Counted from the stretch's first letter, positions 41,025-60,911 are shown. The stretch is 64,000 bases of DNA from Halomicrobium katesii DSM 19301 (GCF_000379085.1 NZ_KB905379.1:473198-537197), one strand, 5' to 3'. The notes: generated from the sequence alone by a model not told the origin. Made by a program: numbers and translations.

Positions 41025-42032
41025 CTACGCATCGTCGAGAAAGTCTCGGCGTCGCTCCGCGCGTTCCCGCTCGGAGCGCTCGTCGTAGTGCTGCTCGAGG
41101 ACATCCGGGGTCGCGTTCGACCGGTCGGACACGACCTCCTCGGGAACGCCCTCCCGTAGCATCCGGGTGATGGCACCACGCCGGACGCTGTGGGGAGACC
41201 GCGACGAGGGGCACTGAGAACCTTGGTACGGTTCCAGTGCCTCGCACTCGTCCTCGTCACGGTCGTGAGGGCAGTCACGACCGACAATACACGGACGAGA
41301 GAGTCGATAGATCGTGTTCCGAATCGTCGCGTTCGCGATCCGGCCGAACCGCGTCGTGATCAGCGGCGATCGTCCGGCATCATCCGTCGTATCCTCACGG
41401 TTGTATTCGATGAAGTCGTCGATCGCCTCGCCGTAGTGTTCGCCGACGACTATCGAGCGCTCCGCGGCGGTCCCGTTCTTGAGCGGCGTGTCAGAATCCG
41501 GGTCGTGGCGAACCTTCAGGAGCAGCGCTTCACTGTCCCAGTCCGAGACGTCCATCGAGCGGAGTGTCCCGATCCGAATACCAGTGTGCCAGAGGATCGC
41601 CATGATGACGTGATCCCGACTCGCGTACCGGAACTTCTCGCAGAACTCCAGGATCCGCTCGGCGCGGTCCTCTTCGAGCTGGACGCTCCGGGACTCGTCT
41701 TCGGCGTCGACGTCCGGGAGCACGACCTTCTCGCGCATCCCTTGCTCGACGGCGTCGATCGTCGCGCAGAACTCCAGAAACACGCGTAGCGTCGCGAGGT
41801 TACTCTTGAGAGTCAGCGTCGTCAGATCCTCACCACGCCAGACGCGGTACGCGTGGAGATCGCGACCCGTGAGTTCGTTCAGGTCGTCGATGTCCTCGAT
41901 CTCGCAGAACTCGACGAACGTGTCGAGTCGGTACTTGTGATTCTGGATCGACTTCTTGGACAGCTCGTGCTTGCGATGTTCGAGATACATCTCCACCGCT
42001 TTGCGCGGCGAGATCGGCTCCAGATCGGTCAC
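41025..42032 (-). CDS. Tyrosine recombinase/integrase (XerC/D-like)
   Basis: A 335-residue integrase. Residues 1-105 form a SAM-like core-binding domain (AVEMYLEHRKHELSKKSIQN). The catalytic domain has the first arginine in LWHTGIRIGTLRSMD, H-x-x-R in SPHSVRRGAITRML and the nucleophile tyrosine in VLEQHYDERS. A CxxD/CEALE zinc-like insertion (CIVGRDCPHDRDEDECEAL) is typical of haloarchaeal integrases. The start is a GTG that overlaps a 20-codon frame by 3 nt. It probably integrates or excises the element at the tRNA-like sequences on either side. Confidence 0.9.
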   Translation of the reverse strand: MTDLEPISPRKAVEMYLEHRKHELSKKSIQNHKYRLDTFVEFCEIEDIDDLNELTGRDLHAYRVWRGEDLTTLTLKSNLATLRVFLEFCATIDAVEQGMREKVVLPDVDAEDESRSVQLEEDRAERILEFCEKFRYASRDHVIMAILWHTGIRIGTLRSMDVSDWDSEALLLKVRHDPDSDTPLKNGTAAERSIVVGEHYGEAIDDFIEYNREDTTDDAGRSPLITTRFGRIANATIRNTIYRLSRPCIVGRDCPHDRDEDECEALEPYQGSQCPSSRSPHSVRRGAITRMLREGVPEEVVSDRSNATPDVLEQHYDERSERERAERRRDFLDDA

Positions 42033-43804: not shown

Positions 43805-44007
43805 CGCAGCACCTCCCGGCGCTCGATCGTGACCGCGCTGACGTGGTCCTCACGGCGGAACTGCTCGTAGTAGTCCTCGACGGTCGGGAAGTCGGCCGTC
43901 CACTCGCTGAAGTGGGTCAGCTCGCCGACCGCGTAGCGGAGCCGCCACTGACACTCCTCGACCGTCGGGCCGCTGTGTGCGCCGTCACGGGCGTCGGCCT
44001 CGCTCAT
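43801..44007 (-). CDS. Small hypothetical operon protein
   Basis: A 68-residue acidic protein with VEECQWRLRYAVGELTHFSE and a C-terminal FRREDHVSAVTIERREVLR. No family is recognised. It overlaps the PadR-like gene before it and the J-domain gene after it by 4 nt each, so it is a genuine member of the operon. Confidence 0.55.
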   Translation of the reverse strand: MSEADARDGAHSGPTVEECQWRLRYAVGELTHFSEWTADFPTVEDYYEQFRREDHVSAVTIERREVLR

Positions 44008-44348
44008 CGCCCATCGCCCCCGTCGGCGCGGGCCTGCGGCTCAGCGCTCGACTCGCGGCCGCAGATCGCCGCCACGCGGTCGGCGTGGGTATCGATCGCT
44101 CCGCGGCCCGCGTCGGTCAGCCGGTAGGCGTTCGTCCGGTCGTCGACGGCCTCGGTCTCGATCAGGCCCGCCTCCTCCAGCGTGTTGAGGTTCTGGTACA
44201 GCCGGCTGTGGTTCACGGGGTCGCTGTAGCGCTCGCCCAGCCACGCCCTGATGGCGAGCCCGTAGGGAAGCTCGTCGTCGGCGTCGAGGGCGGCGATGGC
44301 GTGCAGGAGATCGCGCTGGAACCCCGTGCGGTCGAACCACGTCGTCAT
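44004..44348 (-). CDS. PadR-like winged-helix regulator, copy 1
   Basis: A 114-residue regulator. GFQRDLLHAIAALDADDELP, then YGLAIRAWLGE, and the helix-turn-helix NHSRLYQNLNTLEEAGLIET match the PadR pattern. The wing is RTNAYRLTDAG. It is the first gene of the overlapping operon and is nearly identical in its N-terminal 90 residues to the protein at 47043-47378. Its upstream region carries the two-part repeat shared by three loci, which makes self-control or control of the other two loci likely. Confidence 0.8.
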   Translation of the reverse strand: MTTWFDRTGFQRDLLHAIAALDADDELPYGLAIRAWLGERYSDPVNHSRLYQNLNTLEEAGLIETEAVDDRTNAYRLTDAGRGAIDTHADRVAAICGRESSAEPQARADGGDGR

Positions 44349-44811: not shown

Positions 44812-45120
44812 GTGAATATTAACTCCGGGAGTGCTCTTCTTCAAGATGTGCAACCATCCTGGTGGGGAAAATATGATGACATCATTCTGCGGCTCTTAGA
44901 CGATACTGGTGCTGCCCTGCCGCCCCGGGTCGTCGGATTTAACCTCGAATATCGAGAGATAGCATCTCCGCACAGATCGACTGTTAAACGTCGTCTCCAA
45001 CGTCTAGAGGAGAATGGGTATGTTGAGAAAGTCGGTGACGGTGGATACTATATGATTTCCGACAATGGTCGTAAGTATCTACGAGACCATTTTGACTACG
45101 GGCCAGAGACGAAAGCTTAA
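44812..45120 (+). CDS. Phage-type winged-helix regulator (PhiH1-repressor-like)
   Basis: A 102-residue protein in the style of halovirus PhiH1-repressor-like regulators: YDDIILRLLDDTGAALPP, helix-turn-helix around HRSTVKRRLQRLEENGYVE and a wing GDGGYYMISDNGRKYLRD. A GTG at 44848 (VQPSWWGKYDD) would give the usual family N-terminus and is the main alternative start. Its promoter lies between palindromic arms. It is similar to the protein at 48026-48316. Confidence 0.75.
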   Translation: MNINSGSALLQDVQPSWWGKYDDIILRLLDDTGAALPPRVVGFNLEYREIASPHRSTVKRRLQRLEENGYVEKVGDGGYYMISDNGRKYLRDHFDYGPETKA

Positions 45121-45289: not shown

Positions 45290-46282
45290 ATGACTAATCC
45301 CCATTATGGGGAAGCAGAGTTCCTCTGCTACCAAGTGATTAAGCAAGTCCGCGAGAGGTACGGACAATCATGGGACTTGCCGAAAACGGAATTCTACAAA
45401 CTCTGCTATATTGTCGATAGGCGGCTTCAGGAAGAAGATATTGACATTGAGCTATCCACTCACTGGTACCGGTATGGTGGGGTACTGACCACTGATGCCA
45501 TGAATACTGGCTTCTATTCGCTTGAAGAACAGACATGGGGGGAAAACGCGGGTAGCAATGTGCTTATCGCCGACGGCGTAGAAGATTCTGACTTTGACAC
45601 CGACGAAGAAGTAGAACGAGCGATATCAGAGATGTCCGAATCCGTAGTTGATGAATTGGGCCAAGGTTACGGTATCTCTGTCTCACAGGACTACCAATAC
45701 AAGGAGTACGCACCAGATGACTTTGTCCGGAGTCTCCACGAATTTAGAAGTTTTATTCAAGACATTGACGAAGACGATGCTCTAAACAGTGAAGATTATA
45801 TTAGCGGTGTGGATGTCGGATTCAAAGATATAATTGGAGATTCATCACCCGATAAGACTGGCTCTTCAGCATCCTCAGAGACAAATAACCGAATTCGAGA
45901 CCATCTAGATGCTCTATTGGCTGAATATCCCGAGGACAAGTATTCACAGATGGAAGGCTTGTTCCTTGACTGGGAAAACCTCTCATGGCAAATGGCGAAG
46001 AACGGCTTTTACAGCCGCCTTCAGGATTTCATGGAATCTTTCTGGACGACATTTAGCAGGGTAGAACTCCGACCAAAGAACAATCAGCATGTGCCGCTAA
46101 GTATTCGGAGCCAGTGGAATAACCAGATCTCAGACGAGATGGAGTCGTTCGAAAACGAGATCCAAGAGAAGCGTGAAGTCGTGCTGAACAACCGCAGAGA
46201 AACAAATGAGTTAGATATTATTAGCGAGAGCTACAGTGACACAGCACGAGATCTCTTCGACCAACCGCTACAGAACGAATGA
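45290..46282 (+). CDS. Panacea/SocA-like antitoxin candidate
   Basis: A 330-residue protein. The first 170 residues fit a Panacea-type antitoxin domain: EFLCYQVIKQVRERY, FYKLCYIVDRRLQ and HWYRYGGVLTTDAM resemble the family's LYYAD and YGP-x-x-x elements. A long helical C-terminal part (GLFLDWENLSWQMAKNGFY, then ENEIQEKREVVLNNRRETNE) may bind the toxin. A TATA element TTTATAC lies about 26 nt before the ATG (leaderless). It overlaps the PIN gene by 4 nt. I am fairly sure of the domain's general type, less so of its function. Confidence 0.5.
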   Translation: MTNPHYGEAEFLCYQVIKQVRERYGQSWDLPKTEFYKLCYIVDRRLQEEDIDIELSTHWYRYGGVLTTDAMNTGFYSLEEQTWGENAGSNVLIADGVEDSDFDTDEEVERAISEMSESVVDELGQGYGISVSQDYQYKEYAPDDFVRSLHEFRSFIQDIDEDDALNSEDYISGVDVGFKDIIGDSSPDKTGSSASSETNNRIRDHLDALLAEYPEDKYSQMEGLFLDWENLSWQMAKNGFYSRLQDFMESFWTTFSRVELRPKNNQHVPLSIRSQWNNQISDEMESFENEIQEKREVVLNNRRETNELDIISESYSDTARDLFDQPLQNE

Positions 46283-46974
46283 CAGGCAGTACGCAAGTTC
46301 TTGATACTGGTGTCCTCGTCGGTATCGCAGTGGCTCATGATCAACATCATGGAAAATGTTTGGAGTTCGTCCTTGAGACCGATGAAGTCTCGTACGCTAC
46401 TCCGACTGTCGGGAATGAATTTCGGAGTAAGCTACCAGAGGTCCGTGACAGATTAAGCAGGGATATCAAACGCCACAGGAGTTCTTTGGCGAAACAAATC
46501 AGCAAAAAGCGTCTGAACAGAACCGACCTGGTACAGATCCGTGAGCAAATATTAGATACTGCTCTAGATGCTCATCGGTTCCTCTTTGAGTTTTATGATC
46601 AATTAGCTCAGCAAGGAGAGATCAAGCGAGAAGACCTCATGGACCGACTCTCAGACATGGCGACAGAGGTACATGAGGATGCCGCAAAGGAGCATGGAGG
46701 GTTCAACACCCTAGTTTCTGCATGGTCGGGAGGGGTAGATAACTATAGTAAAATAGAGGAAGAGCTGCTGATCTGTGAGGGTGACGATCCTGATGTGTGT
46801 TTAGAGGCCCACCATATTGCTGTAACTCTCGGAGGCGAAACTGAACTGGGTACAACAAACCCAAACGATTTTATCAAACAGCAAAAGGGAGAACCAGAAG
46901 AAAGAAAAGAAAATATTCTCCGTCTCACAGCCCTGTCGGATGTTCGAGATCTGTCAATAGGTAGGTACCCGTAA
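46279..46974 (+). CDS. PIN-domain-like nuclease, candidate toxin
   Basis: A 231-residue protein with PIN-fold signs: VLDTGVLVGIAVAHDQHHGK (first acidic site and H/D following), ATPTVGNEF (second acidic site), a long helical insert, and VCLEAHHIAVTLGGETELGT followed by NPNDF (third and fourth acidic sites, with Glu where Asp is common). PIN proteins are Mg-dependent ribonucleases and frequent toxins. The helical insert (about 60-150) is longer than in VapC. The ATGA overlap with the Panacea-like gene points to a toxin-antitoxin pair. Confidence 0.55.
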   Translation: MTGSTQVLDTGVLVGIAVAHDQHHGKCLEFVLETDEVSYATPTVGNEFRSKLPEVRDRLSRDIKRHRSSLAKQISKKRLNRTDLVQIREQILDTALDAHRFLFEFYDQLAQQGEIKREDLMDRLSDMATEVHEDAAKEHGGFNTLVSAWSGGVDNYSKIEEELLICEGDDPDVCLEAHHIAVTLGGETELGTTNPNDFIKQQKGEPEERKENILRLTALSDVRDLSIGRYP

Positions 46975-47042: not shown

Positions 47043-47378
47043 CTAACTACCCCCGGTTAGTGGTCGCAGTTCGCGCTGTGACGTTCCGAACGAGATCGCA
47101 GCCACGCGCTGGACGTGGCGCTCGAATAGATCGCGTCCCTCTTCGGTCAGGCGGTAGGCGTTCGTCCGGCCGTCGGCGGCCGCTGTTTCGACGAGGCCCG
47201 CCTCTTCCAGCGCGTTGAGGTTCTGGTACAGCCGGCTGTGGTTCACGGGGTCGCTGTAGCGCTCGCTCAGCCACTCCTTGAGCGCGAGCCCGTAGGGCAG
47301 CTCGTCGTCGGCGTCGAGGGCGGCGACGGCGTGCAGGAGATCGCGCTGGAACCCCGTGCGGTCGAACCACGTCGTCAT
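47043..47378 (-). CDS. PadR-like winged-helix regulator, copy 2
   Basis: A 111-residue paralogue of the regulator at 44004-44348: same start MTTWFDRTGFQRDLLHA, same HTH (NHSRLYQNLNALEEAGLVET), but a different C-terminus (RELRPLTGGS). It is not followed by the operon that copy 1 leads. The start is the ATG at 47378; the longer frame upstream runs through repeat DNA. Copies were probably made by recent duplication. Confidence 0.75.
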   Translation of the reverse strand: MTTWFDRTGFQRDLLHAVAALDADDELPYGLALKEWLSERYSDPVNHSRLYQNLNALEEAGLVETAAADGRTNAYRLTEEGRDLFERHVQRVAAISFGTSQRELRPLTGGS

Positions 47379-47455
47379 GCTGCCACTCCTGTTGCGTGCA
47401 TACCAGGAGCCTGAACGAGGACGCTTGAAAGGCTGCGGCGGGCGGGTGACTGAAT
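47158..47455. repeat. Direct repeat copy 2 (partner 44128-44425)
   Basis: It aligns with copy 1 at a constant +3030 bp offset, including the promoter CCAGGAGCCTGAACGAGGAC. Between the copies lie the palindromic operator, the winged helix and the Panacea-like/PIN pair. Confidence 0.7.
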
Positions 47456-47551
47456 GGCCGTGTCGAGACGGGTGGATCGACGGAGAGCGATTCTCCGGCC
47501 GCTTGGCGTCGGTTTCAGCAGTGACCGAATCGTGACCGAATGTGATCGAAT
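47432..47551. promoter_or_regulatory. Two-part repeat promoter, locus 2
   Basis: The proximal part (GGGCGGGTGACTGAAT) is at 47432-47455, 54 nt from the gene start. The distal triple GTGACCGAAT-C-GTGACCGAAT-GTGATCGAAT is at 47521-47551, again 89 bp further. The stretch between the parts is not conserved with locus 1. Confidence 0.75.
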
Positions 47552-47607
47552 CGGGTGCTGGGTGCGTCCGGTCGAGCGGTGCGACTGTCGGTGCATCAGT
47601 GTCCTGG

Positions 47608-47783
47608 TCATGCAGAATCACGCGCGAGTGCGCTGACGGTCAGCTGGCCGAGCGAGTGGCCGCAGGGGTCGGCCGTGTAGCCAGTCGGCCCATCGCAGGC
47701 GATCCCGTCGAGCGGGGTCCCACAGACGGGGCACTGGCCGGCGGTCGTAGACTGTGCGTCGGTCGGTTGAGACCTACTAAGTC
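47608..47783 (-). pseudogene. Zinc-ribbon frame without a start codon
   Basis: Between two stops the minus strand encodes a protein-like stretch with QCPVCGTPLDGIACDG, TGYTADPCGH and SLGQLTVSALARDSA, a four-cysteine ribbon typical of small haloviral proteins. No ATG, GTG or TTG is in frame upstream, so it looks decayed. It could be intact only if it starts at an unusual codon. Confidence 0.35.
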
Positions 47784-47907: not shown

Positions 47908-47974
47908 GCAGATATCTGGCCACATTAAAATAGTTTTGGGTAGATATATGGCTATAGATATAAGATATCTGCCC
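47908..47974 (+). promoter_or_regulatory. Operator-like AGATAT repeats
   Basis: The motif (G/T)AGATAT(C/A)TG(G/C)C is present three times: GCAGATATCTGGC (47908-47920), GGGTAGATATATGGC (47938-47952) and AAGATATCTGCCC (about 47962-47974). The last two form an imperfect inverted pair. They lie upstream of a TATTTTAC element near 48001 that could start a leaderless mRNA at the GTG 48026. Confidence 0.6.
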
Positions 47975-48025: not shown

Positions 48026-48316
48026 GTGTCACGCCGCCATCGAGCAAAGTGGATGACTGGTAGAGACGATATCATCCTCGAATTCCTCGACGAGAGCGGC
48101 GCAATTCTGAACAAGAAGGCGCTGGAGATCAATCTTAACGCAGAGGAAGCTGGAATCTCGTACTCTACGATTCAGCGACGACTTCCTAAACTGGAGGAAA
48201 CTGGGCTCGTCGAACTGGTGATCGAAGAGGGGACTTGGTATCGGATCACGGACCGTGGCCGGTCGTATCTACAGGGCGAGGCCGATCTGCGGGACGAGTC
48301 CGAGCCGGAGAGCTAA
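48026..48316 (+). CDS. Phage-type winged-helix regulator, second
   Basis: A 96-residue protein of the same kind as 44812-45120: TGRDDIILEFLDESGAILNK, helix-turn-helix SYSTIQRRLPKLEETGLVE, wing EEGTWYRITDRGRSYLQGE. The GTG at 48026 has the better TATA distance; ATG 48053 is an alternative. It is the natural local regulator of the unknown gene cluster that begins 118 nt downstream. Confidence 0.75.
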   Translation: MSRRHRAKWMTGRDDIILEFLDESGAILNKKALEINLNAEEAGISYSTIQRRLPKLEETGLVELVIEEGTWYRITDRGRSYLQGEADLRDESEPES

Positions 48317-48433
48317 ACAGTGATCGCAGTTCTGAAGGCGGATTCGCCAAATAACTGGCAATCATGAGGCTGATCTGGCACCTTCAAACAATTATCCGAA
48401 AGACACTTTTTGCAACCAAATTATTACCACGTT

Positions 48434-49123
48434 ATGAAAGCTGGGATTGTCGGACTCTTGGATTCGCCTTCAGAGACTATTGAAGCAGTAGACGGAATCA
48501 CGACACAAGACGGTCGTGAGTACCGGTACTGTATCGAACCACGAGAGACGTTTACTGATGCTCCGGTAAATGGCGTGATCCAGACAGGAGAGGCAGCGAT
48601 GGAAATCCCGAAAGAAGTGGAGCGTGTCGAGATTGAAGACGGAACAATCACTCGGAAGACAACTGTAAGAACCGAAACCAAGCATACAGAATGGCTCTTG
48701 ATTCCTGACGAAATCGTCGTCGTGGAAAACAGTGAGGGTCGTTTCTTCCATGATCTGCTTGCGAGTGAATTCGGATGGCGTGCCAACCGAGCACAATTCG
48801 ATCTAACTTCGATGCGCTCGGATTACGAGGAAACCCAGCTGTGGCAAGTTGGGTTCTACGATCACTTGGGCGAAGCTCAGAAAGGTGTTGTATACGGTGA
48901 AGACGTACTTGATGATCAGGATCTTGGAAGCGCTTTGGATGATTCTCAGATCAACCAGTTAGGACTGGTCTACCAGCGTGACGGCGATACTGTAAAGGTG
49001 ACACTCGCAGAGAGTGGTTACGTAGAATTATATCAGCCATCTGGTTTTGATGCCGATGATTTTGCTGTGTATATCCAAGAAGAAATTAGGAAATACGTCA
49101 GTGGAATCCATACTGAAAAGTAG
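48434..49123 (+). CDS. Unknown protein, first gene of AT-rich cluster
   Basis: A 229-residue protein starting MKAGIVGLLDSPSETIEAVD. It looks soluble and mixed alpha/beta; features are EHTEWLLIPDEIVVVE-like strands (KHTEWLLIPDEIVVVENSEG), FHDLLASEFGWRAN and a helical end YIQEEIRKYVSG. No family is recognised. The codon use is clearly more AT-rich than in chromosomal genes. The ATG is 24 nt inside a frame that begins with TTG. A defence role is only a possibility from its setting. Confidence 0.6.
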   Translation: MKAGIVGLLDSPSETIEAVDGITTQDGREYRYCIEPRETFTDAPVNGVIQTGEAAMEIPKEVERVEIEDGTITRKTTVRTETKHTEWLLIPDEIVVVENSEGRFFHDLLASEFGWRANRAQFDLTSMRSDYEETQLWQVGFYDHLGEAQKGVVYGEDVLDDQDLGSALDDSQINQLGLVYQRDGDTVKVTLAESGYVELYQPSGFDADDFAVYIQEEIRKYVSGIHTEK

Positions 49124-49179
49124 TTCCAGATAGAAAACAAATAATAAATGTTTAGTTATCTCAGTATAGTCTTCACTCT

Positions 49180-50262
49180 ATGAGTGACGCCTCGGACCTA
49201 GACGAGAAATTTGAGTATGACGGTCGGCTGGTTTTCAATGGACTGTACTTAGATGCTGAGGACCAAGCACCGTTTAGCTCAAAAGAAGATTTACTCAATG
49301 AACTTCCTGAATTTGAGCAAGGAGTCCCACGAAAACCAGGTAGAGGTTTCAAAGATCTGAGCCTTGAGGAGTGGAACGAACGCTACAGTGAACTTCCAAG
49401 AGAGCTTGAGGAAGTCCTTGACCAGTCATGGGATGTTGAGTACAAGCACGAAAAGTTCGATACACCGGACGACTTAGTGGATACTGATGGTAATCCCGTT
49501 AAGGGGTGGGTCGCCGAGGACTGGTCAGCATATGTATACTGGTATCCGGGAGAGTTTTTAATCATCCAGGCTAGCCAATCGAAACTAAATGAAGTTGAGG
49601 ATAAACTATTCCCTGTTGTTGGTCGCACAAACTTCGAAGTGAATGACAGCGGAGCAGAAAATGGCGATGACGGAAACAGTGATAGCAATGGTGCAGAAGA
49701 GGGACTTTTCAGCCCAGAGTTCCTGCAGTGGCTAGTCTGGAAATACGACACCCTTGGTAGTGCCTCGAAATTGGGAATAAATGAACTCACAGACGCAGCT
49801 ATGTCTGGAAATCTAGGGGATTTCGGTCGTACAAATGAAGTAAGCGAATCAGATAATATTACAAACTCTCATCCAATCATCGCTGGGATGCTAGAGAACA
49901 GAAAATTCGAAGAAATTGAGGGTGTATTCGAGATTCATGATCACGAGATAGATGCTCAAATTTACAGAGACGGTAGTATCCGGGTTATGGCACAGGAGGC
50001 CATTGGGGATGCTACGCAATACGTACGGATCCTGTTGGCTAATTTGTTCATGAAGCGCGTGCTTGAAGTCTATCTTCAGTGGCGATCCATGCCACCAGAG
50101 GAAAAGTACGTTGATCCGGAGTACTTCAAAGATCTGCATGAGAAGGCAAAGGATATGCCCGAAGCAGCGACATACGACTTTGGGTTTGAATCGTTAGTAC
50201 TTCACTACGCAAACCTCCGGAATGAAGATCCAGGAGACTACGACTGGGATTTCGAGACGTAA
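49180..50262 (+). CDS. Unknown protein, second gene of AT-rich cluster
   Basis: A 360-residue acidic protein. Residues 1-150 hold WSAYVYWYPGEFLIIQAS and a strand-rich pattern. Residues 155-180 are a low-complexity acidic linker (NDSGAENGDDGNSD). The C-terminal half begins FSPEFLQWLVWKYDTLGSAS and ends FESLVLHYANLRNED, suggesting a helical second domain. No motif names a function. It has a TATA-like AATAATAAATG upstream, so it may have its own promoter. Confidence 0.6.
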   Translation: MSDASDLDEKFEYDGRLVFNGLYLDAEDQAPFSSKEDLLNELPEFEQGVPRKPGRGFKDLSLEEWNERYSELPRELEEVLDQSWDVEYKHEKFDTPDDLVDTDGNPVKGWVAEDWSAYVYWYPGEFLIIQASQSKLNEVEDKLFPVVGRTNFEVNDSGAENGDDGNSDSNGAEEGLFSPEFLQWLVWKYDTLGSASKLGINELTDAAMSGNLGDFGRTNEVSESDNITNSHPIIAGMLENRKFEEIEGVFEIHDHEIDAQIYRDGSIRVMAQEAIGDATQYVRILLANLFMKRVLEVYLQWRSMPPEEKYVDPEYFKDLHEKAKDMPEAATYDFGFESLVLHYANLRNEDPGDYDWDFET

Positions 50263-50319
50263 CAAAAAACTATCGCAACTGGTATGCGTATCGCAGTCTA
50301 AAGCTTAAATCAGCTACCC

Positions 50320-50973
50320 ATGGCAGTTGACAGCGTCCGCCGTCTTTCGGAACGCGGGGTTCAACAGCAACTGCCATTTGAACGGAATACTCAGTTTGAT
50401 TTGGTGGAGGAAGATTCGGTTACGGCAATTGATCTAATTGGCAACACAGACATTGGTCCGTATCCATTTGTAAACCAAGCGCGAAGATACTGGAGTTTTG
50501 AGTTTACAACGGATCCGATGTTTGGTTCCCCGAAGTCGGTCTCTGGTGTGCTTGAAGTTCGCGAAGGTTCAGGATTCGTGTTCTTGATCCTTGATCAAGA
50601 TACACCGAAACCAGATACTATCTTTTCGGAGCTTCGCGATTCTACACAAACAGATTTTCCGATAGAAACAGACTTCTCACCCACCTACAAATCGGTTTGT
50701 GATTTTATTAGAAGTTCAAGCAGCATTGTCAAGGTAGATTCTCCAACGTCAAGGAATCCCAAAGAAAGGATCCAACAAGGAGAGAATATTCCGGTAGAAG
50801 TGGCTCGCCTCCGATTCGAACATGAGGAAAGTCACTCAATCACCTATTCAGATGCTCAACTCAGTATTCCAATAGACACTGAAGAGGGAGCATTAGTAGA
50901 AAGTGTGGCAAGAGAATATTCATTTCGAGAATATGTAGTTCAAAAGTTTGAATCAGCATTCACTCAAGAATAG
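50320..50973 (+). CDS. Unknown protein, third gene of AT-rich cluster
   Basis: A 217-residue protein, MAVDSVRRLSERGVQQQLPF, with mostly strand-like composition (YWSFEFTTDPMFGSPKSVSG, VLEVREGSGFVFLILDQDTP). The end is helical (SFREYVVQKFESAFTQE). It has no membrane segment or signal. It is followed by the next gene after 3 nt, so those two form one unit. Confidence 0.6.
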   Translation: MAVDSVRRLSERGVQQQLPFERNTQFDLVEEDSVTAIDLIGNTDIGPYPFVNQARRYWSFEFTTDPMFGSPKSVSGVLEVREGSGFVFLILDQDTPKPDTIFSELRDSTQTDFPIETDFSPTYKSVCDFIRSSSSIVKVDSPTSRNPKERIQQGENIPVEVARLRFEHEESHSITYSDAQLSIPIDTEEGALVESVAREYSFREYVVQKFESAFTQE

Positions 50974-50976
50974 TCG

Positions 50977-51417
50977 ATGTTTTTTCGATTTGATTTTTCG
51001 AAAGATGTTCTATCTTCGTCCCAAACTTTGCCAGATATATGTGCTGAAATAGAGCCTCGAAGGACCCCACCGAACAGTGTAGAGGAATTGTTGGTTCAAT
51101 CCAGTGCAAAATTTGTCTTGAGACTGAAAACGAGTAACGATGCTGGGTACAGTGGCCAAATAGGATTTGAAACACCAGATCCCTTTGAGGTCCGTAATGA
51201 TGGTCTTGGCCTTCCAGAGTTCATACAGTGGAACTATGATGAACAGATCCTAAATGTCGATGAACTGTCTGGGAATGCAGAGATTGTGATGAAAGTCTTA
51301 CTCCCCGGAAAGTATAGAGGAGAATACCATGGGACAATAGCGATTACTGAAAAAGTATCTTCAAAAGTGGTGTGCACCCATAGTTTGAAATCTGATCCTC
51401 CTATTCATTATAAGTAG
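50977..51417 (+). CDS. Unknown protein, fourth gene of AT-rich cluster
   Basis: A 146-residue protein, MFFRFDFSKDVLSSSQTLPD, with an immunoglobulin-like strand pattern in its second half (SAKFVLRLKTSNDAGYSGQI, VLLPGKYRGEYHGTIAITE). It probably partners the third protein, which ends 3 nt upstream. Its 3' end overlaps the convergent membrane gene by 17 nt. Confidence 0.55.
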   Translation: MFFRFDFSKDVLSSSQTLPDICAEIEPRRTPPNSVEELLVQSSAKFVLRLKTSNDAGYSGQIGFETPDPFEVRNDGLGLPEFIQWNYDEQILNVDELSGNAEIVMKVLLPGKYRGEYHGTIAITEKVSSKVVCTHSLKSDPPIHYK

Positions 51418-52222
51418 TTTGAGGAGCACGGAGGGTATTATCTTTTGATTTCAGAATTGACTGAACTTCATTGTGGACATCTGAATCACCGTTCAAGATA
51501 TCTTCCAATTGTTGCCCCTTATCAAGAGTGATCTTCATAGGGGGAAGAAATTGTCTTCCGATCCCCTTATCTGGTATTCGATGGTCGTACTGTATCTCAA
51601 ATTGCATATACACATCTTCTGTAGAAATTGAATCGTTATCATCCAACCGCCTCAGCACTGATGAAAACACCTCATCAAAATCGTCAAATTCCTGACTGGG
51701 TAAATAGAGTTCCGCTGAGAAATCTGCTTCACTACCAGATTTGACAGATCTGATAAACGAGCCCTTTGTTTTATTCAATTGGTTATCATATCTCGGCTCA
51801 CCAATGGAAATTGAGTCGCTATCATCATCGTGGCTTGGAATATAAATATGAGAAACAATTGATAGCTGGTCTGCTAGACCAGCCCCAATATTCTCAAGAG
51901 TGACCGTTGCAATATCTCCATCTGCCTTGATAGCTTTGACGTTAATCAATGGCTCTCTCTCTGCACGATCTAACTTCATTTGCGTTTTCTGAATACTTGA
52001 TTGTTCCTTCTGTATTTTACTCATATTAAAATACAACACCACAAGCGAGGCGGAGAATAATCCTGGAATAATGACCCGCAAAAGATCCATCGGCTTTGCA
52101 GATTCCTTAGATATTTGGGAGGGCCAAAACGGGTGGATATATATAATCAGTCCTGCTGCTGCAAGTAAAAATATAATGAGTATAGAGTATATAATCAAAG
52201 TGCCCGTTGATCGTTCCCCCAT
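51401..52222 (-). CDS. Unknown membrane protein, AT-rich
   Basis: A 273-residue protein with two N-terminal membrane helices (LIIYSILIIFLLAAAGLII at about 9-29, and VIIPGLFSASLVVLYF near 50-66), a short coiled stretch (SKIQKEQSSIQKTQMKLDRA) and a strand-rich cytoplasmic domain of about 190 residues. It is convergent with the four-gene cluster and shares its low GC. An origin in the same import is likely; whether it acts with them is open. Confidence 0.55.
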   Translation of the reverse strand: MGERSTGTLIIYSILIIFLLAAAGLIIYIHPFWPSQISKESAKPMDLLRVIIPGLFSASLVVLYFNMSKIQKEQSSIQKTQMKLDRAEREPLINVKAIKADGDIATVTLENIGAGLADQLSIVSHIYIPSHDDDSDSISIGEPRYDNQLNKTKGSFIRSVKSGSEADFSAELYLPSQEFDDFDEVFSSVLRRLDDNDSISTEDVYMQFEIQYDHRIPDKGIGRQFLPPMKITLDKGQQLEDILNGDSDVHNEVQSILKSKDNTLRAPQTTYNE

Positions 52223-52315: not shown

Positions 52316-53113
52316 TCAGGCCACTCGCTTAGCCCCTATTAACCGACCGAACCGCTCCAACAGCTCCACCCCTTGCTCGGCTGTCGTCGTCAGTTCGTAC
52401 CCATCCTCACCTTCGACCACAACCCCGAGACTCGGGTGTGACAGCAGCACGAGCGACGACTCGATCCGTGCCACACCGGGCACGTCACCGTCGCGCATCC
52501 CGATCAGGACGTGCCGTAGCTCCCCCGCCGTATACGCCCCCACACCGCGCTCCAGGGCGTCCATCATCGACACCAGCTCACCGGCGGCGGCCCGCCGGTC
52601 CGCGATCCGCTCGTCGATCTCGTCCAGACGGTCGTCCTGGAACGCGCCAGGCTCGAACAGCACATCGGCAACGAACTCCGGTCGAAGACCGAACGTCTCG
52701 TTGCGCTCGACCAGCCCCCGCAGCCGGTCCGCGCTCACCAGCACCAGCCCGTCCCGGTTGGCGTCGTCGATCGCGGCGGGCATGAAGCCGGGGGCGACGA
52801 CGACGGCGTACTCGGCACCCCGGGCCTCCTGGTGGCCGCGAATCCGGCTCGCGTCGGGCGACTGGAGTTGCCCGTTGCCACGGGCCTTGACCTCGACGAT
52901 CGCCTCGACCGGCTCGGTCAGCTGCACGTCCGTGTCGTCGCCGCCCTCGATCCACTGCACGTCGAACCCGAGCCGCGAGAACGCTTCGGCGACCAGCTCC
53001 TCGAACTCGTCGTAGGCCGCGCCGTTCTCGCTCGCCGCGACCAGGCGCTCGCCGAAGTCCATCGCCGTCTCCTCCTCGTCGTCATCGTCTGGATCATCGT
53101 CGACGACATGCAC
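52316..53113 (-). CDS. Mrr-like PD-(D/E)xK restriction endonuclease part
   Basis: A 265-residue protein. Residues 35-120 carry the nuclease core: YDEFEELVAEAFSRLGFDV, then IEGGDDTDVQL and AIVEVKARGNGQ (the D...EVK motif), and RIRGHQEARGAEYAVVVAPG. The rest is helical with a winged-helix-like end (TTAEQGVELLERFGRLI). The frame continues upstream through a methyltransferase-like tail, so it may be a piece of a larger gene. The GTG at 53113 is a nominal start. Confidence 0.55.
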   Translation of the reverse strand: MHVVDDDPDDDDEEETAMDFGERLVAASENGAAYDEFEELVAEAFSRLGFDVQWIEGGDDTDVQLTEPVEAIVEVKARGNGQLQSPDASRIRGHQEARGAEYAVVVAPGFMPAAIDDANRDGLVLVSADRLRGLVERNETFGLRPEFVADVLFEPGAFQDDRLDEIDERIADRRAAAGELVSMMDALERGVGAYTAGELRHVLIGMRDGDVPGVARIESSLVLLSHPSLGVVVEGEDGYELTTTAEQGVELLERFGRLIGAKRVA

Positions 53114-53392
53114 CCGCGGCCCGGAGTCAGTCAGTTCGTTGATCGCCGTCTCGGACGAGTCGTGCTCCGCAGCAACGCGCTCGATGCGATCGTCGGCGAC
53201 GCGAGTGAACCCCTGGGGCCGATAGCCGGGCTCGTAGCCGACGAGGGCGTTGAACGGCGCTACGTCGATGTCGATCTCCCCGTCGGTCAGTCCGTAGAGT
53301 TCGTAGACGATCTCGTCGATCAGGTCATCCGTTCTCTCGATCTTCGCTTACAGTTCCTCGCGCACGTCGTCGATGGCCGGAAACATGACCCG
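53114..53392 (-). pseudogene. Methyltransferase C-terminal remnant with in-frame stop
   Basis: Upstream of the nuclease the same frame reads AKIERTDDLIDEIVYELYGL-TDGEI, the characteristic C-terminal helix of Eco57I/PglX-type DNA methyltransferases. Just before it, in the same frame, lies VMFPAIDDVREEL, and a TAA at 53348-53350 separates the two. This looks like a nonsense-broken or deleted restriction-modification fusion gene. Confidence 0.55.
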
Positions 53393-53411
53393 TATCTTGA
53401 ATCGCCAGCGC

Positions 53412-54785
53412 TTACAGAGTCGCTTGGAACGTCTCGGCCCATTCCTTCGGCACCGGCAAATCACGAAGGACACGCGACTGCAGCCGGTAATACCCATTAT
53501 GTGCCTTTTGGCAATGTGCTTCCATCCACATGCGGGCTTCTGGACTGTTGAGGTGAGCGAGAAGCTCATCGAACGGCACACCGTCTTGTGGGACGGCGTA
53601 ATACACTGAGTGCTTCGGTACGACAGTTCCCTCCGATTCAGCCCAGAACTGTGGTACCTTCGCGATATCGCGGAACACGATCTTTGGCTGCAGTATGTCT
53701 TGCATCGGCGGGTTCTCGTGCCACCCGTACCAGGCCTTGCCGTTCTCGACGCACGACCGGTCCTCCAACCGTTCACGGTGATCTTCTAACCACTCATAGA
53801 ACCTGTCGAGTTCGTCCTCGTCTGCTAGCTCACCTGTCGATGTGTACGGGCACACGAATACCGAATCAGTGTATGGCCCGTCAAAATCCCGCAATTGACT
53901 CCCGCTGACGGTCGGATATACCCACTGTTCGTCGATCTCGTCCGGAACGTCGTCGGCATCAAGAACGAACACTTTGTCCGCACCGGTCGCCAGACCCGGG
54001 CTGATTCGTTCTGTAATGTCACCGAGCGTCGCACCGGTCTGCATGTCTTCCAGGTCGGCTCCGCGCACGTTTGACGCCCAGCTGTCCCCGGTGACGGGAA
54101 GCGTGGTAGTGTGAGTGGTACCATCCCGAAGCGTTACGTGCGTCTCACGAGGTACATCTGGATTCTCGATGCGACGAACCGTCGTTATACATGGGAACGT
54201 GATGAGCCCCGTAAATGCGTCTTCTGGAATGTGTTCGATTTCTTCGATCCGGATGTCGCCACTCCTCAGCAAGCGTCGGAGCGGTGCTGCAGTGTCCACA
54301 TACTCGTATTTTTCCGGCGTCACGAACGACAACACACCAGTCGGTGCGAGCATGGACAGCGCCCGTTCGAAGAACAAAAGATACAGATCGAAACGTTCGA
54401 CTGCAGTTTGGAACGTCGCTCGATACCGCTCTTTCTCGTCCTCTGAGAGGCCTTCGATCGGCACGTACGGCGGGTTCCCGACAATATAGTCGAACGTCCC
54501 CGCATCGAGCATCTCGTCGGCTAAGAAGTCTCGTTCTTCGAATGTGACGTGTGTCAGTCCGCGGTCTCGTGCCTGTGCCAAGTGCTCTGGATCCGTCTCG
54601 ACCGCGACGCCATCCGGATACTCCCAGCCCTCCTCGTCGCAGACGCGCTCGACTGCGGCAGCGAATGGTGCGTCACCTGCGCCTGGGTATAGAATATGAT
54701 CGGCACCGGCTGGTGGATCGTCACGAAACGCTCGCTGAACCGTTTTCTCGGCGAGCGCGTCCGGCGTCGGCACGTGCCCTTTCAT
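53412..54785 (-). CDS. N6-adenine DNA methyltransferase (PaeR7I/XhoI type)
   Basis: A 457-residue methyltransferase. Motif I is ILYPGAGDAPFAAAVERV, the catalytic NPPY is in YIVGNPPYVPIEGL at about 111, and a target-recognition part follows, with LPVPKEWAE at the end. It modifies adenine in DNA. The adjacent PaeR7I-type endonuclease makes CTCGAG the expected target. The endonuclease gene is upstream on the same strand, 46 nt away, so both are probably transcribed together. Confidence 0.85.
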   Translation of the reverse strand: MKGHVPTPDALAEKTVQRAFRDDPPAGADHILYPGAGDAPFAAAVERVCDEEGWEYPDGVAVETDPEHLAQARDRGLTHVTFEERDFLADEMLDAGTFDYIVGNPPYVPIEGLSEDEKERYRATFQTAVERFDLYLLFFERALSMLAPTGVLSFVTPEKYEYVDTAAPLRRLLRSGDIRIEEIEHIPEDAFTGLITFPCITTVRRIENPDVPRETHVTLRDGTTHTTTLPVTGDSWASNVRGADLEDMQTGATLGDITERISPGLATGADKVFVLDADDVPDEIDEQWVYPTVSGSQLRDFDGPYTDSVFVCPYTSTGELADEDELDRFYEWLEDHRERLEDRSCVENGKAWYGWHENPPMQDILQPKIVFRDIAKVPQFWAESEGTVVPKHSVYYAVPQDGVPFDELLAHLNSPEARMWMEAHCQKAHNGYYRLQSRVLRDLPVPKEWAETFQATL

Positions 54786-54831
54786 CTACCTTCGACTGGT
54801 GCGTGTTCGGACTTTAATCTACGCACATGCA

Positions 54832-55572
54832 CTACTCACCGAGGGTGTCCTGTTCGTAATCGATGTGCCCCGAAACATGTGACGCGAGGGACTGTGCGAA
54901 CCGCTTGAATCGAAGTTCCTCATTCGGTTCCCAGAATTCACCGTCCAAACCCTGTTCTTCGTCACTCAACAGGAACGCTGACTCATTCACAAGTCGCTTC
55001 CGAACCATGCGAAGACACAAGACCTCCATCCGATCGACATACGTCGCACCGCGGAACTCGTCGTCAACCTCGAAGTTCGTTTCGCGCACCGACGGGACGT
55101 TCCGAGATTTTTCGTTATCCGCCATGAGCATCAAGTATCCAATCCAGGGCTGTGGACTCGGAGCGAACACTCCCTCCTCATATGCTTCGATAATGTCGGT
55201 GTTGTTCCCGATCGCTTCCTCAGCCCGGTTATTGAGGTTGTTTCCGAAACTCGATGCCTGGCTCTTGTACTCGACAACTGCGAGGAGTTCTCCCTCATGC
55301 ACGACTGCCGTATCCCACTCTTTTTCGTGTCTGTAGTACCCAGGCAGCGTCGCATAGTAATCGTGTTTCACGGCATCTCTCGGCACACCAGCTTCAACGA
55401 CGATATCCTCAATGAGCCCAGCAAATGAATCCATTTGCTGCCCCCCGAGGACTTCGGCTCGTCTCCCACGTGTAGAATCTTCGGATTCGCGTTGTGCTTC
55501 GCCTTGCCCGGACCGCGTTTCCCAGTACCACTGCACTGCATCTGAGACTTCAGAATCGAGATCCTCAATCAT
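54832..55572 (-). CDS. PaeR7I/XhoI-type type II restriction endonuclease
   Basis: A 246-residue endonuclease of the PaeR7I family, which cuts CTCGAG. Landmarks: GRRAEVLGGQQMDSFAGLIE, YYRHEKEWDTAVVHEGELL and AVVEYKSQASSFGNNLNNRA (the D...E-x-K catalytic triad area). The length matches PaeR7I (about 246 residues). The ATG at 55572 starts MIEDLDSEVSDAVQWYW, which also fits. The neighbouring methyltransferase protects the DNA. Confidence 0.85.
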   Translation of the reverse strand: MIEDLDSEVSDAVQWYWETRSGQGEAQRESEDSTRGRRAEVLGGQQMDSFAGLIEDIVVEAGVPRDAVKHDYYATLPGYYRHEKEWDTAVVHEGELLAVVEYKSQASSFGNNLNNRAEEAIGNNTDIIEAYEEGVFAPSPQPWIGYLMLMADNEKSRNVPSVRETNFEVDDEFRGATYVDRMEVLCLRMVRKRLVNESAFLLSDEEQGLDGEFWEPNEELRFKRFAQSLASHVSGHIDYEQDTLGE

Positions 55573-55597
55573 ACCTGGAGTGGTTATTCGCGTGTTG

Positions 55598-55789
55598 TTA
55601 TTGTATCGATTCAGTCACGAATTCCACGCTTTCCAAGACACTCATCGCTCCCGGGTATCCACAAATCCCTCCACAACTCCGACAGTTCACAGTCGATCCT
55701 TGCTTATCCCGAATATCGACGTGGCCCTTCGGACACCGCGTGGTCCACCCGTTCTCGATCAGGTCGGGAATCTCAGATAGCTGGGCCAT
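55598..55789 (-). CDS. Small zinc-ribbon protein
   Basis: A 63-residue protein with TRCPKGHVDIRD and NCRSCGGICGYPG, a probable zinc site. It lies between the restriction endonuclease and the Dam-like gene, all on the minus strand. It may be a control protein for one of them, but no such role is known to me. Confidence 0.55.
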   Translation of the reverse strand: MAQLSEIPDLIENGWTTRCPKGHVDIRDKQGSTVNCRSCGGICGYPGAMSVLESVEFVTESIQ

Positions 55790-55841
55790 CCATCAACGAT
55801 GTTGAGGCCTTCTGTGAGTGGATCGACCGGAACTTGCAGCG

Positions 55842-56636
55842 TCACATACCGATCGGCGACGGTTCGAAGTTCAGTAGCAACCGCTCGCGGGTCTCGTTCG
55901 CCGAACCGCTCGTTCCACTGTTGATGTAGTTCTTGCTGTCACGAGCCAGTACTTCTAGATCATCGGCACCTTCCGGGAGCTCCTGATACGAGCAGATCCC
56001 GTAGCCGTCCAGGTCGCCGATCGCGTCGACGAGCTCGCCGTGGACGATCTCGCTGGTCGGGTAGTAGTCCTCGGTGCCGACGTAGGGCGGGTCGAAGTAG
56101 AACACCGTCTCCTCGCTGTCGTACTTTTCGACCAGCTCCCGCCAGTGGAGGTTCTCGACGACCACGTCGTCGAATCGCTCTGCGAACTCGCGAAGTCGAT
56201 CGATCTTGTTCGAGAAACTGAGGGCACTATTCGAGACCTTGCTGGTCGCAAAGCCGTTTTCACCACTGTAGCCAGCACCCCACTGTGCATAGCGGAGATA
56301 GAAGAACTGGCCGGCCCGCTTGACGTCGTCTTTCGGCCGGTAGCCCTGGTAGTATGCTTCGGCCCAATCGGTGTGGACAGTCCGCGAGTACGGTACGGAC
56401 GAGAGCCACTGCACCAGCTCGTCGGGCTGCTCACGGAGCACTTCGAAGAAGTGGACGAGATCCTCGTCGAGGTCGTTGTACACCTCCACAGAGCTTGTCT
56501 CGGGATCTTTGTTCGCCAGCACACCTGCAGCGCCGCCGAAGGCCTCGACGAAACACTCGTGCTCCGGGACGTGCTCCAGGATCCACGACGCGAGTCGACT
56601 CTTCCCACCGGGGAACGGAAAGACTGCGTCGGGCAT
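55842..56636 (-). CDS. Dam-like N6-adenine DNA methyltransferase
   Basis: A 264-residue enzyme of the D12/Dam class. FPFPGGKSRLASWILEHV (SAM site), FVEAFGGAAGVLANK and the catalytic DPPY in VFYFDPPYVGTEDYY at about 180 are present. No endonuclease partner adjoins it, so it is an orphan as commonly found in haloviruses, where it protects DNA or marks replication. The target sequence is not readable. Confidence 0.85.
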   Translation of the reverse strand: MPDAVFPFPGGKSRLASWILEHVPEHECFVEAFGGAAGVLANKDPETSSVEVYNDLDEDLVHFFEVLREQPDELVQWLSSVPYSRTVHTDWAEAYYQGYRPKDDVKRAGQFFYLRYAQWGAGYSGENGFATSKVSNSALSFSNKIDRLREFAERFDDVVVENLHWRELVEKYDSEETVFYFDPPYVGTEDYYPTSEIVHGELVDAIGDLDGYGICSYQELPEGADDLEVLARDSKNYINSGTSGSANETRERLLLNFEPSPIGM

Positions 56637-60320: not shown

Positions 60321-60911
60321 ATGCGAATCGAAGCGACAGCGGGCAACGAACACAAGGTCTGGCTCACTGACAGCGAGATCGAGGACCTTCGGCGGGCAAC
60401 GAACAGCCAGCGCGACGACCTCATCATCCAACTCGGCGCGTTCGTCGGCCTGCGCGCCTTCGAGATCCCGCAGGTCCGGCCCGTCGACGTCAAGCAAAGC
60501 GAAAGCGGCCAGTACCGCCTCCGGGTACGGGCAGGAAAGGACACGGCCGGCAACGGTGGGAAGCCTCGTGATGCCTATCTGCCCGATCGCGTCGAGCGAG
60601 ACCTTCAGCGCTTCCAGAATGAGCACAACATCGCACCGAAAGACCCCTTCGTCGACCTCACCCAGCCCGGCGTCCGGGCAGTAATCCGACGGACAGCCCA
60701 ACGTGCAGCTGACGCGACCGGCGACGCGGACTTCGAGAAGGTCTCGACGCACGATCTCCGACGGCGCTTCGCACAGAGACTCCTGGTCGACCAGCAAATG
60801 AACCCACGCGTCGTGATGGCAGTGGGGGGCTGGGATAGCTTCGCCGCTATCGAGCCGTATCTCAACGCGCCGAGCGAGGAAGTGATCGACGAGGCATTTG
60901 CGGATTTATAG
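60321..60911 (+). CDS. Small tyrosine integrase (SNJ2-type candidate)
   Basis: A 196-residue tyrosine recombinase that consists almost only of the catalytic domain: first arginine in FVGLRAFEIPQVRPVDV, H-x-x-R in VSTHDLRRRFAQRLL and the tyrosine in AIEPYLNAPSEEV. The core-binding domain of larger integrases is missing. Short integrases of this kind are known from haloarchaeal elements, and the pleolipovirus SNJ2 enzyme comes to mind, but I cannot confirm that relation. It would act on repeats A and B or on a tRNA outside the window. Confidence 0.75.
   Translation: MRIEATAGNEHKVWLTDSEIEDLRRATNSQRDDLIIQLGAFVGLRAFEIPQVRPVDVKQSESGQYRLRVRAGKDTAGNGGKPRDAYLPDRVERDLQRFQNEHNIAPKDPFVDLTQPGVRAVIRRTAQRAADATGDADFEKVSTHDLRRRFAQRLLVDQQMNPRVVMAVGGWDSFAAIEPYLNAPSEEVIDEAFADL

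Follow-up and report, generated by a model that had tools for sequence, protein, structure and literature searches.

Genes B, C, and D of Halomicrobium katesii DSM 19301 belong to a gene unit that recurs among haloarchaea, and there is good support for reading this unit as a mobile archaeal cassette, whose products are a pair of subunits with a predicted RdgC fold and a partner linked to the membrane. The best explanation of its function, held with a probability of about 0.55, is a mobile archaeal RexAB-like system, in which a two-subunit DNA clamp and a membrane-linked effector would together have an antiviral role. The cassette may be an unrecognised antivirus alarm in which the sensing of DNA is linked to the cell membrane. 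As named here, it goes unrecognised by PADLOC, Pfam, NCBIfam, and PHROGs, and a sensor split in two subunits within a transferable three-gene boundary would be a new system for separating DNA sensing from the membrane effect.

The window, i.e., the whole 64,000-nt stretch of the H. katesii genome that was analysed and not the cassette alone, carries on its plus strand a PhiH1-repressor-like winged-helix regulator with a GTG start (48026-48316), followed by gene A (48434-49123), gene B (49180-50262), gene C (50320-50973), and gene D (50977-51417; 146 aa). Gene A ends at 49123 and starts either at TTG 48410 or, by alignment with its relatives, at ATG 48434. The GC content is 0.557 for the regulator and 0.477, 0.462, 0.436, and 0.410 for A, B, C, and D, respectively, against a reference of 0.651 (window positions 1-30000). 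A preliminary description of this DNA had reported four same-strand genes of clearly lower GC, the last two of them 3 nt apart, and both statements hold (0.410-0.477 against 0.651; D starts 3 nt after C). It had also assigned the four genes to no recognisable family, which is upheld for B, C, and D, for which Pfam, NCBIfam, PADLOC, and PHROG gave nothing noteworthy (all E > 0.3); they also had no match to the PADLOC 2.0.0 profiles at E ≤ 1 and nothing significant in a sequence search of the PDB with their profiles. The statement fails for gene A, which matches phrog_18169, a family of unknown function (E 7e-33).

The unit proposed at first was the regulator with four genes; the conserved unit is instead B-C-D. 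Relatives of B were found in 30 of 391 haloarchaeal genomes, and about 20 kb was fetched around each B, after which the genes were called and clustered. The gene order was followed through these haloarchaea and is kept as B-C-D at 28/28 C-bearing loci, with a same-strand B as the immediate upstream neighbour of every C gene (gap of 32-95 nt) and a D-type gene next after C (-4 to +11 nt). The earlier impression that the third and fourth genes are a pair is likewise borne out, since C and D lie at most 11 nt apart or overlap at every locus. By its profile, C is present in 27 of the 30 B-bearing genomes, and the nine C-bearing genomes in a draw of 126 all carry B as well; C was found only in genomes having B. 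The three proteins co-evolve (r = 0.89-0.93), with protein-distance correlations of 0.93 for B-C, 0.90 for C-D, and 0.89 for B-D (permutation p 0.0005), to which related lineages contribute.

The boundary of the unit is visible in the DNA shared between hosts of different families. For example, locus L040 (9411-11840) aligns with locus L051, from a different family, over 2,433 columns that are 87% identical, and the aligned stretch runs from about 55 bp before B to the end of D. The pairs L056/L060 and L032/L033 show the same pattern, hardly any DNA beyond the cassette being alignable. Since the DNA shared between different families is bounded by B-C-D, these genes are a transferable unit, and gene A and the regulator lie outside it. 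Computation thus supports B-C-D as a discrete, horizontally transferred archaeal cassette. Viral and phage records searched with three different B proteins gave no match, and no relatives came out of scans of viral and genome contigs that used as single queries B, two further B proteins, or the B relative of G598, which lies outside the haloarchaea. Among the plasmids, 2 of 72,556 records carry B. With no viral relatives and only two plasmids, the cassette looks like a cellular accessory system.

Gene A is an optional upstream gene. It lies directly upstream of B in 10/28 cassettes, is common elsewhere without B, and has relatives in 69/391 haloarchaeal genomes; its place as a core gene, implied by the first proposal, is without support on these counts and was rejected. 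The comparison of the A and B profiles (hhalign) gave a P of 0.006 over 109 columns, the best among A, B, C, and RdgC though not significant alone, and from this weak sequence likeness A is possibly a third, diverged RdgC-like protein. An N-terminal match of A inside proteins of about 760 aa was taken as chance, as those proteins are elongation factor G. A-family genes that occur without B-C-D (loci L105-L124) sometimes directly follow an integrase-family gene.

The fold of the two larger cassette proteins was predicted with AlphaFold2 models built from alignments of the fetched loci. B, a two-domain protein, was modelled with a pLDDT of 85.6 and a pTM of 0.86, and the smaller C with 82.0 and 0.82. 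In Foldseek searches against the PDB, the model of B found E. coli RdgC at ranks 1-2 (best 2owl, E 4.6e-7, probability 1.00) and that of C found RdgC at ranks 1-3 (best E 3.1e-5, probability 1.00). CENP-L came after RdgC for B (E 0.048, probability 0.72) and CENP-N at rank 5 for C (E 0.064, probability 0.30), both as weak matches. Lambda RexA (8twq), which is present in the PDB, was absent from the 50 listed structural matches of B or C. Against viral models, the eight best matches of B all had a probability of 1.00; the name is recombination-associated protein for three, of which one is RdgC, and exonuclease for another three, the last two being nameless. The global TM-scores of about 0.43 suggest that the domains are arranged differently from those in the crystal, or are flexible. 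The sequence profiles of B and C (hhalign) detected neither RdgC nor each other significantly; among B, C, A, and RdgC no comparison was significant alone, and most alignments ran in a similar register. Pfam RdgC (PF04381) had no match in this genome or in 19 relatives, with a positive E. coli control, and 41 B proteins had no Pfam match except one weak TPR. Since the sequence profiles fall short of significance, the RdgC-fold claim rests on predicted structure. At that level, the computation supports the RdgC three-dimensional fold for both proteins; B is a predicted DNA-binding clamp subunit and C its predicted partner.

The third position of the cassette is conserved and is usually occupied by a membrane protein. 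An N-terminal hydrophobic segment was found in D at 25/28 loci, the exceptions being the window, L042, and L058; outside the window, D usually consists of an N-terminal membrane segment and a C-terminal domain. The strong hydrophobic segments number at most two per D, and the soluble D of the window has none. It ranked about tenth against 150 decoys when compared with the D family by profile, which is not significant, so that it is kept as D by position only. Gene E (51401-52222, minus strand) is convergent with D, overlaps its end by 17 nt, and encodes a membrane protein for which hydropathy shows two hydrophobic segments at the N-terminus; its relatives elsewhere are scattered. A membrane-protein gene comes next after D at 3/3 loci with a soluble D against 6/25 of the others (chance about 0.026 by counting combinations). 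Because a membrane gene follows every soluble D, the feature was extended to 52222, and gene E is probably a membrane partner in its own right here, so that the B-C-D unit of this genome probably includes it.

RdgC homodimers and the CENP-N/CENP-L heterodimer close around DNA. For the cassette, we infer a pairing of B with C, DNA binding, an antiviral function, and an effector mechanism of the following kind: B and C would pair into a clamp closing around DNA; D, here D together with gene E, would connect the clamp to the membrane; and once the clamp has sensed a replication intermediate or viral DNA, growth would be stopped or the cell permeabilised by the membrane component. Lambda RexA, a protein of the RdgC fold, binds DNA whatever its sequence and has the membrane partner RexB (PMC11077077). 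In P. putida, the triggering of RexB by RexA leads to membrane damage and a growth stop (PMC12894663). The RexAB-like reading draws on these published findings, the integrity and transfer of the cassette, the membrane segments in most D proteins, and the predicted RdgC fold of B and C.

The antiviral part of this reading draws on the neighbours of the cassettes. Shedu lies directly after D, and a type IV nuclease, a DrmD-like helicase, TmtA, and a type IIG restriction gene are found near cassettes, as is the XhoI-type system in the window; type I restriction genes stand beside the distant three-gene operon of G598. The TmtA match was made with PADLOC to the product of L047 1317-7778 (E 1.7e-298, tested in L047). 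These neighbours were seen in selected loci, and no enrichment is claimed; since recognised defence genes lie close to several loci, a defence role is plausible. The preliminary description had raised an undescribed defence or counter-defence system, and it is partly supported, the defence side being made plausible by such neighbours. The checks on conserved gene order and on housekeeping or virion homologues did not refute it, for the order was kept at 28/28 loci and no virus or phage record matched. A TmtA-like gene of about 2,150 aa stands directly after D in two cassettes (L047, and L051 from 12052 onward) and has been co-transferred with them.

The surroundings in the window were also described earlier as holding a toxin-antitoxin candidate, restriction-modification, and an orphan methylase, and restriction-modification genes and a D12 methylase are indeed present. 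A restriction island on the minus strand (52316-56636) is made up of an Mrr-type nuclease (52316-53113), an Eco57I-class methylase (53412-54785), an XhoI-type nuclease (54832-55572; PF04555, E 3.6e-56), and the D12 methylase (55842-56636). The toxin-antitoxin candidate comes down to a weak PIN-like pair: two overlapping plus-strand genes (45290-46974; 330 and 231 aa) stand behind a PhiH1-like regulator (44812-45120), and the second has weak PIN-domain matches only (E about 0.05); the layout is like that of a toxin-antitoxin pair, which the two genes may be. Two closely similar PadR-like regulator genes (44004-44348 and 47043-47621, minus strand) flank this pair. Integrase-family genes (41025-42032, minus strand; 60321-60911, plus strand) stand on either side of the low-GC region, which may thus be an integrated element; the window was found to hold no tRNA gene.

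It is conceivable, though doubtful, that the cassette encodes a heterodimeric RdgC-fold clamp which acts as a membrane-tethered antiviral sensor and is the prokaryotic counterpart of CENP-N/CENP-L. If so, it could show the origin of the inner-kinetochore clamp and how a DNA clamp drives a membrane effector. The orthologues of CENP-N/L resemble RdgC (PMC4080450), and the yeast pair, whose domains are related, assembles as a heterodimer on DNA (PMC11077077; PMC4080450; PMC5095916). The same likeness lends itself to a membrane-tethered clamp that segregates or stabilises mobile DNA, B-C encircling it in the way of CENP-N/L at centromeres and D anchoring it to the membrane so that a replicon or island persists. 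The CENP-L and CENP-N chains do rank behind RdgC in the fold searches, in yeast the orthologues are related subunits that sit on DNA as a heterodimer (PMC11077077), and the cassette is mobile and present on two plasmids. However, the CENP matches are weak (E 0.05-0.6), no more than 2 of 72,556 plasmid records carry B, integrases lie within 4 kb of B at 6/32 loci, and the loci are patchy with no consistent partition or replication gene seen alongside, which makes the segregating clamp unlikely.

Rather unlikely as well is a modulator of recombination or repair, in which B-C would coat DNA and restrain RadA, the archaeal RecA homologue, in the manner of bacterial RdgC. RdgC is the best fold match and restrains RecA (PMC11077077), but such a role leaves unexplained both the D gene, always adjacent and usually encoding a membrane protein, and the patchy, transferred distribution of the cassette.

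The regulator bears on a further explanation, namely that these genes stem from a decayed provirus, or that they encode a viral function, for exclusion or counter-defence, next to a repressor of phage type. The preliminary description of a PhiH1-repressor-like regulator with repeated AGATAT sites proved correct: the protein of 48026-48316 matches the regulator family phrog_2440 (E 1e-21), and the regulator has four copies in the genome. Upstream of it lies a candidate operator (47910-47970) with 6 AGATAT matches, both strands counted; it holds two perfect AGATATCT palindromes (47910-47917 and 47963-47970, 53 nt apart) and, between them, single half-sites at 47942 and 47956. In the window as a whole, AGATAT occurs 28 times against 10.5 +/- 3.4 expected from shuffles, i.e., 2.7 times. 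A PhiH1-type repressor with candidate operators, a gene A that belongs to a PHROG, and integrases nearby are in keeping with a provirus. Yet the three different B proteins had no match in viral contigs or phages, and the regulator is absent near most cassettes: a related one lies within 2 kb of B at 8/32 loci, against 1/16 of the loci with A only. A proviral origin is accordingly improbable. On the same count, the regulator is an optional neighbour that lacks support as a core part, and its association was rejected as a hallmark of the cassette. Least probable of all is a toxin-antitoxin-like module whose membrane component and RdgC-fold part hold each other in check, for although C and D are tightly coupled and phage Butters is reported to have a RexA/RexB-like pair with reversed roles (PMC12894663), by sequence neither component is similar to a known toxin, and a silencer would presumably need less than two large subunits of the RdgC fold.

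B also has relatives with other partners, and one such B lineage, mostly found with a membrane protein, counts in favour of the RexAB-like reading. Four B relatives are followed by a D-type gene, without C. Seven others are followed by a Schlafen AlbA_2 protein (PF04326, E 2e-15), and six of the seven also have a small membrane protein close by; these paralogous loci are L031 (9497-11391), L033 (9505-11349), L040, L043, L046, L050, and L055, and several of them adjoin a B-C-D cassette. The type of partner tracks the B tree, in which the AlbA_2-paired B proteins (B') are a separate group with weak support. Outside the haloarchaea, the B relative of G598 (E 6.4e-7) belongs to an operon of three genes; the other two encode a membrane protein and a protein the size of C, but their equation with D and C does not reach significance. 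The operon stands beside type I restriction genes, so named from their sequence.

Among known and newly found systems, the B'-AlbA_2-membrane operons of haloarchaea found here are like B-C-D in that a paralogous B has a second protein as its partner and, in most cases, a small membrane protein too; they differ in having an AlbA_2 domain protein in place of C. RexAB, as known from lambda, P. putida (RexABpp), Sbash, and CarolAnn, shares with B-C-D an RdgC-fold soluble protein beside a membrane protein, and the RexA-type soluble subunit finds its likeness in the predicted B and C. The rexAB genes of lambda and P. putida are downstream of a repressor, and so is the window cluster, with its operator palindromes; however, this trait is true of the window, whereas the regulator family lies within 2 kb of B at only 8/32 loci. 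RexB has four transmembrane helices, whereas D has two segments or none and gene E has two, and D is unlike RexB in sequence as well as in helix number. Similarly, the two genes rexA-rexB stand against three genes at 28/28 loci, with two different predicted RdgC-fold subunits in an archaeal cassette that was not found in viruses. As the cassette has neither a four-helix RexB nor the two-gene layout, it is not counted among the members of RexAB.

Bacterial RdgC (PF04381) is the best structural match of the predicted B and C (probability 1.00), but it is a homodimer with no membrane partner, whereas the cassette has two subunits, unrecognised by Pfam RdgC. CENP-N/CENP-L (Chl4/Iml3) of the inner kinetochore belongs to the same published fold class and is a heterodimer of two related subunits; it differs in that the structural matches are weak, the cassettes have no kinetochore context, and the archaeal heterodimer is putative. 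Set beside these systems, the cassette would add an archaeal two-subunit case to the fold of bacterial RdgC, phage RexA, and the eukaryotic inner kinetochore.
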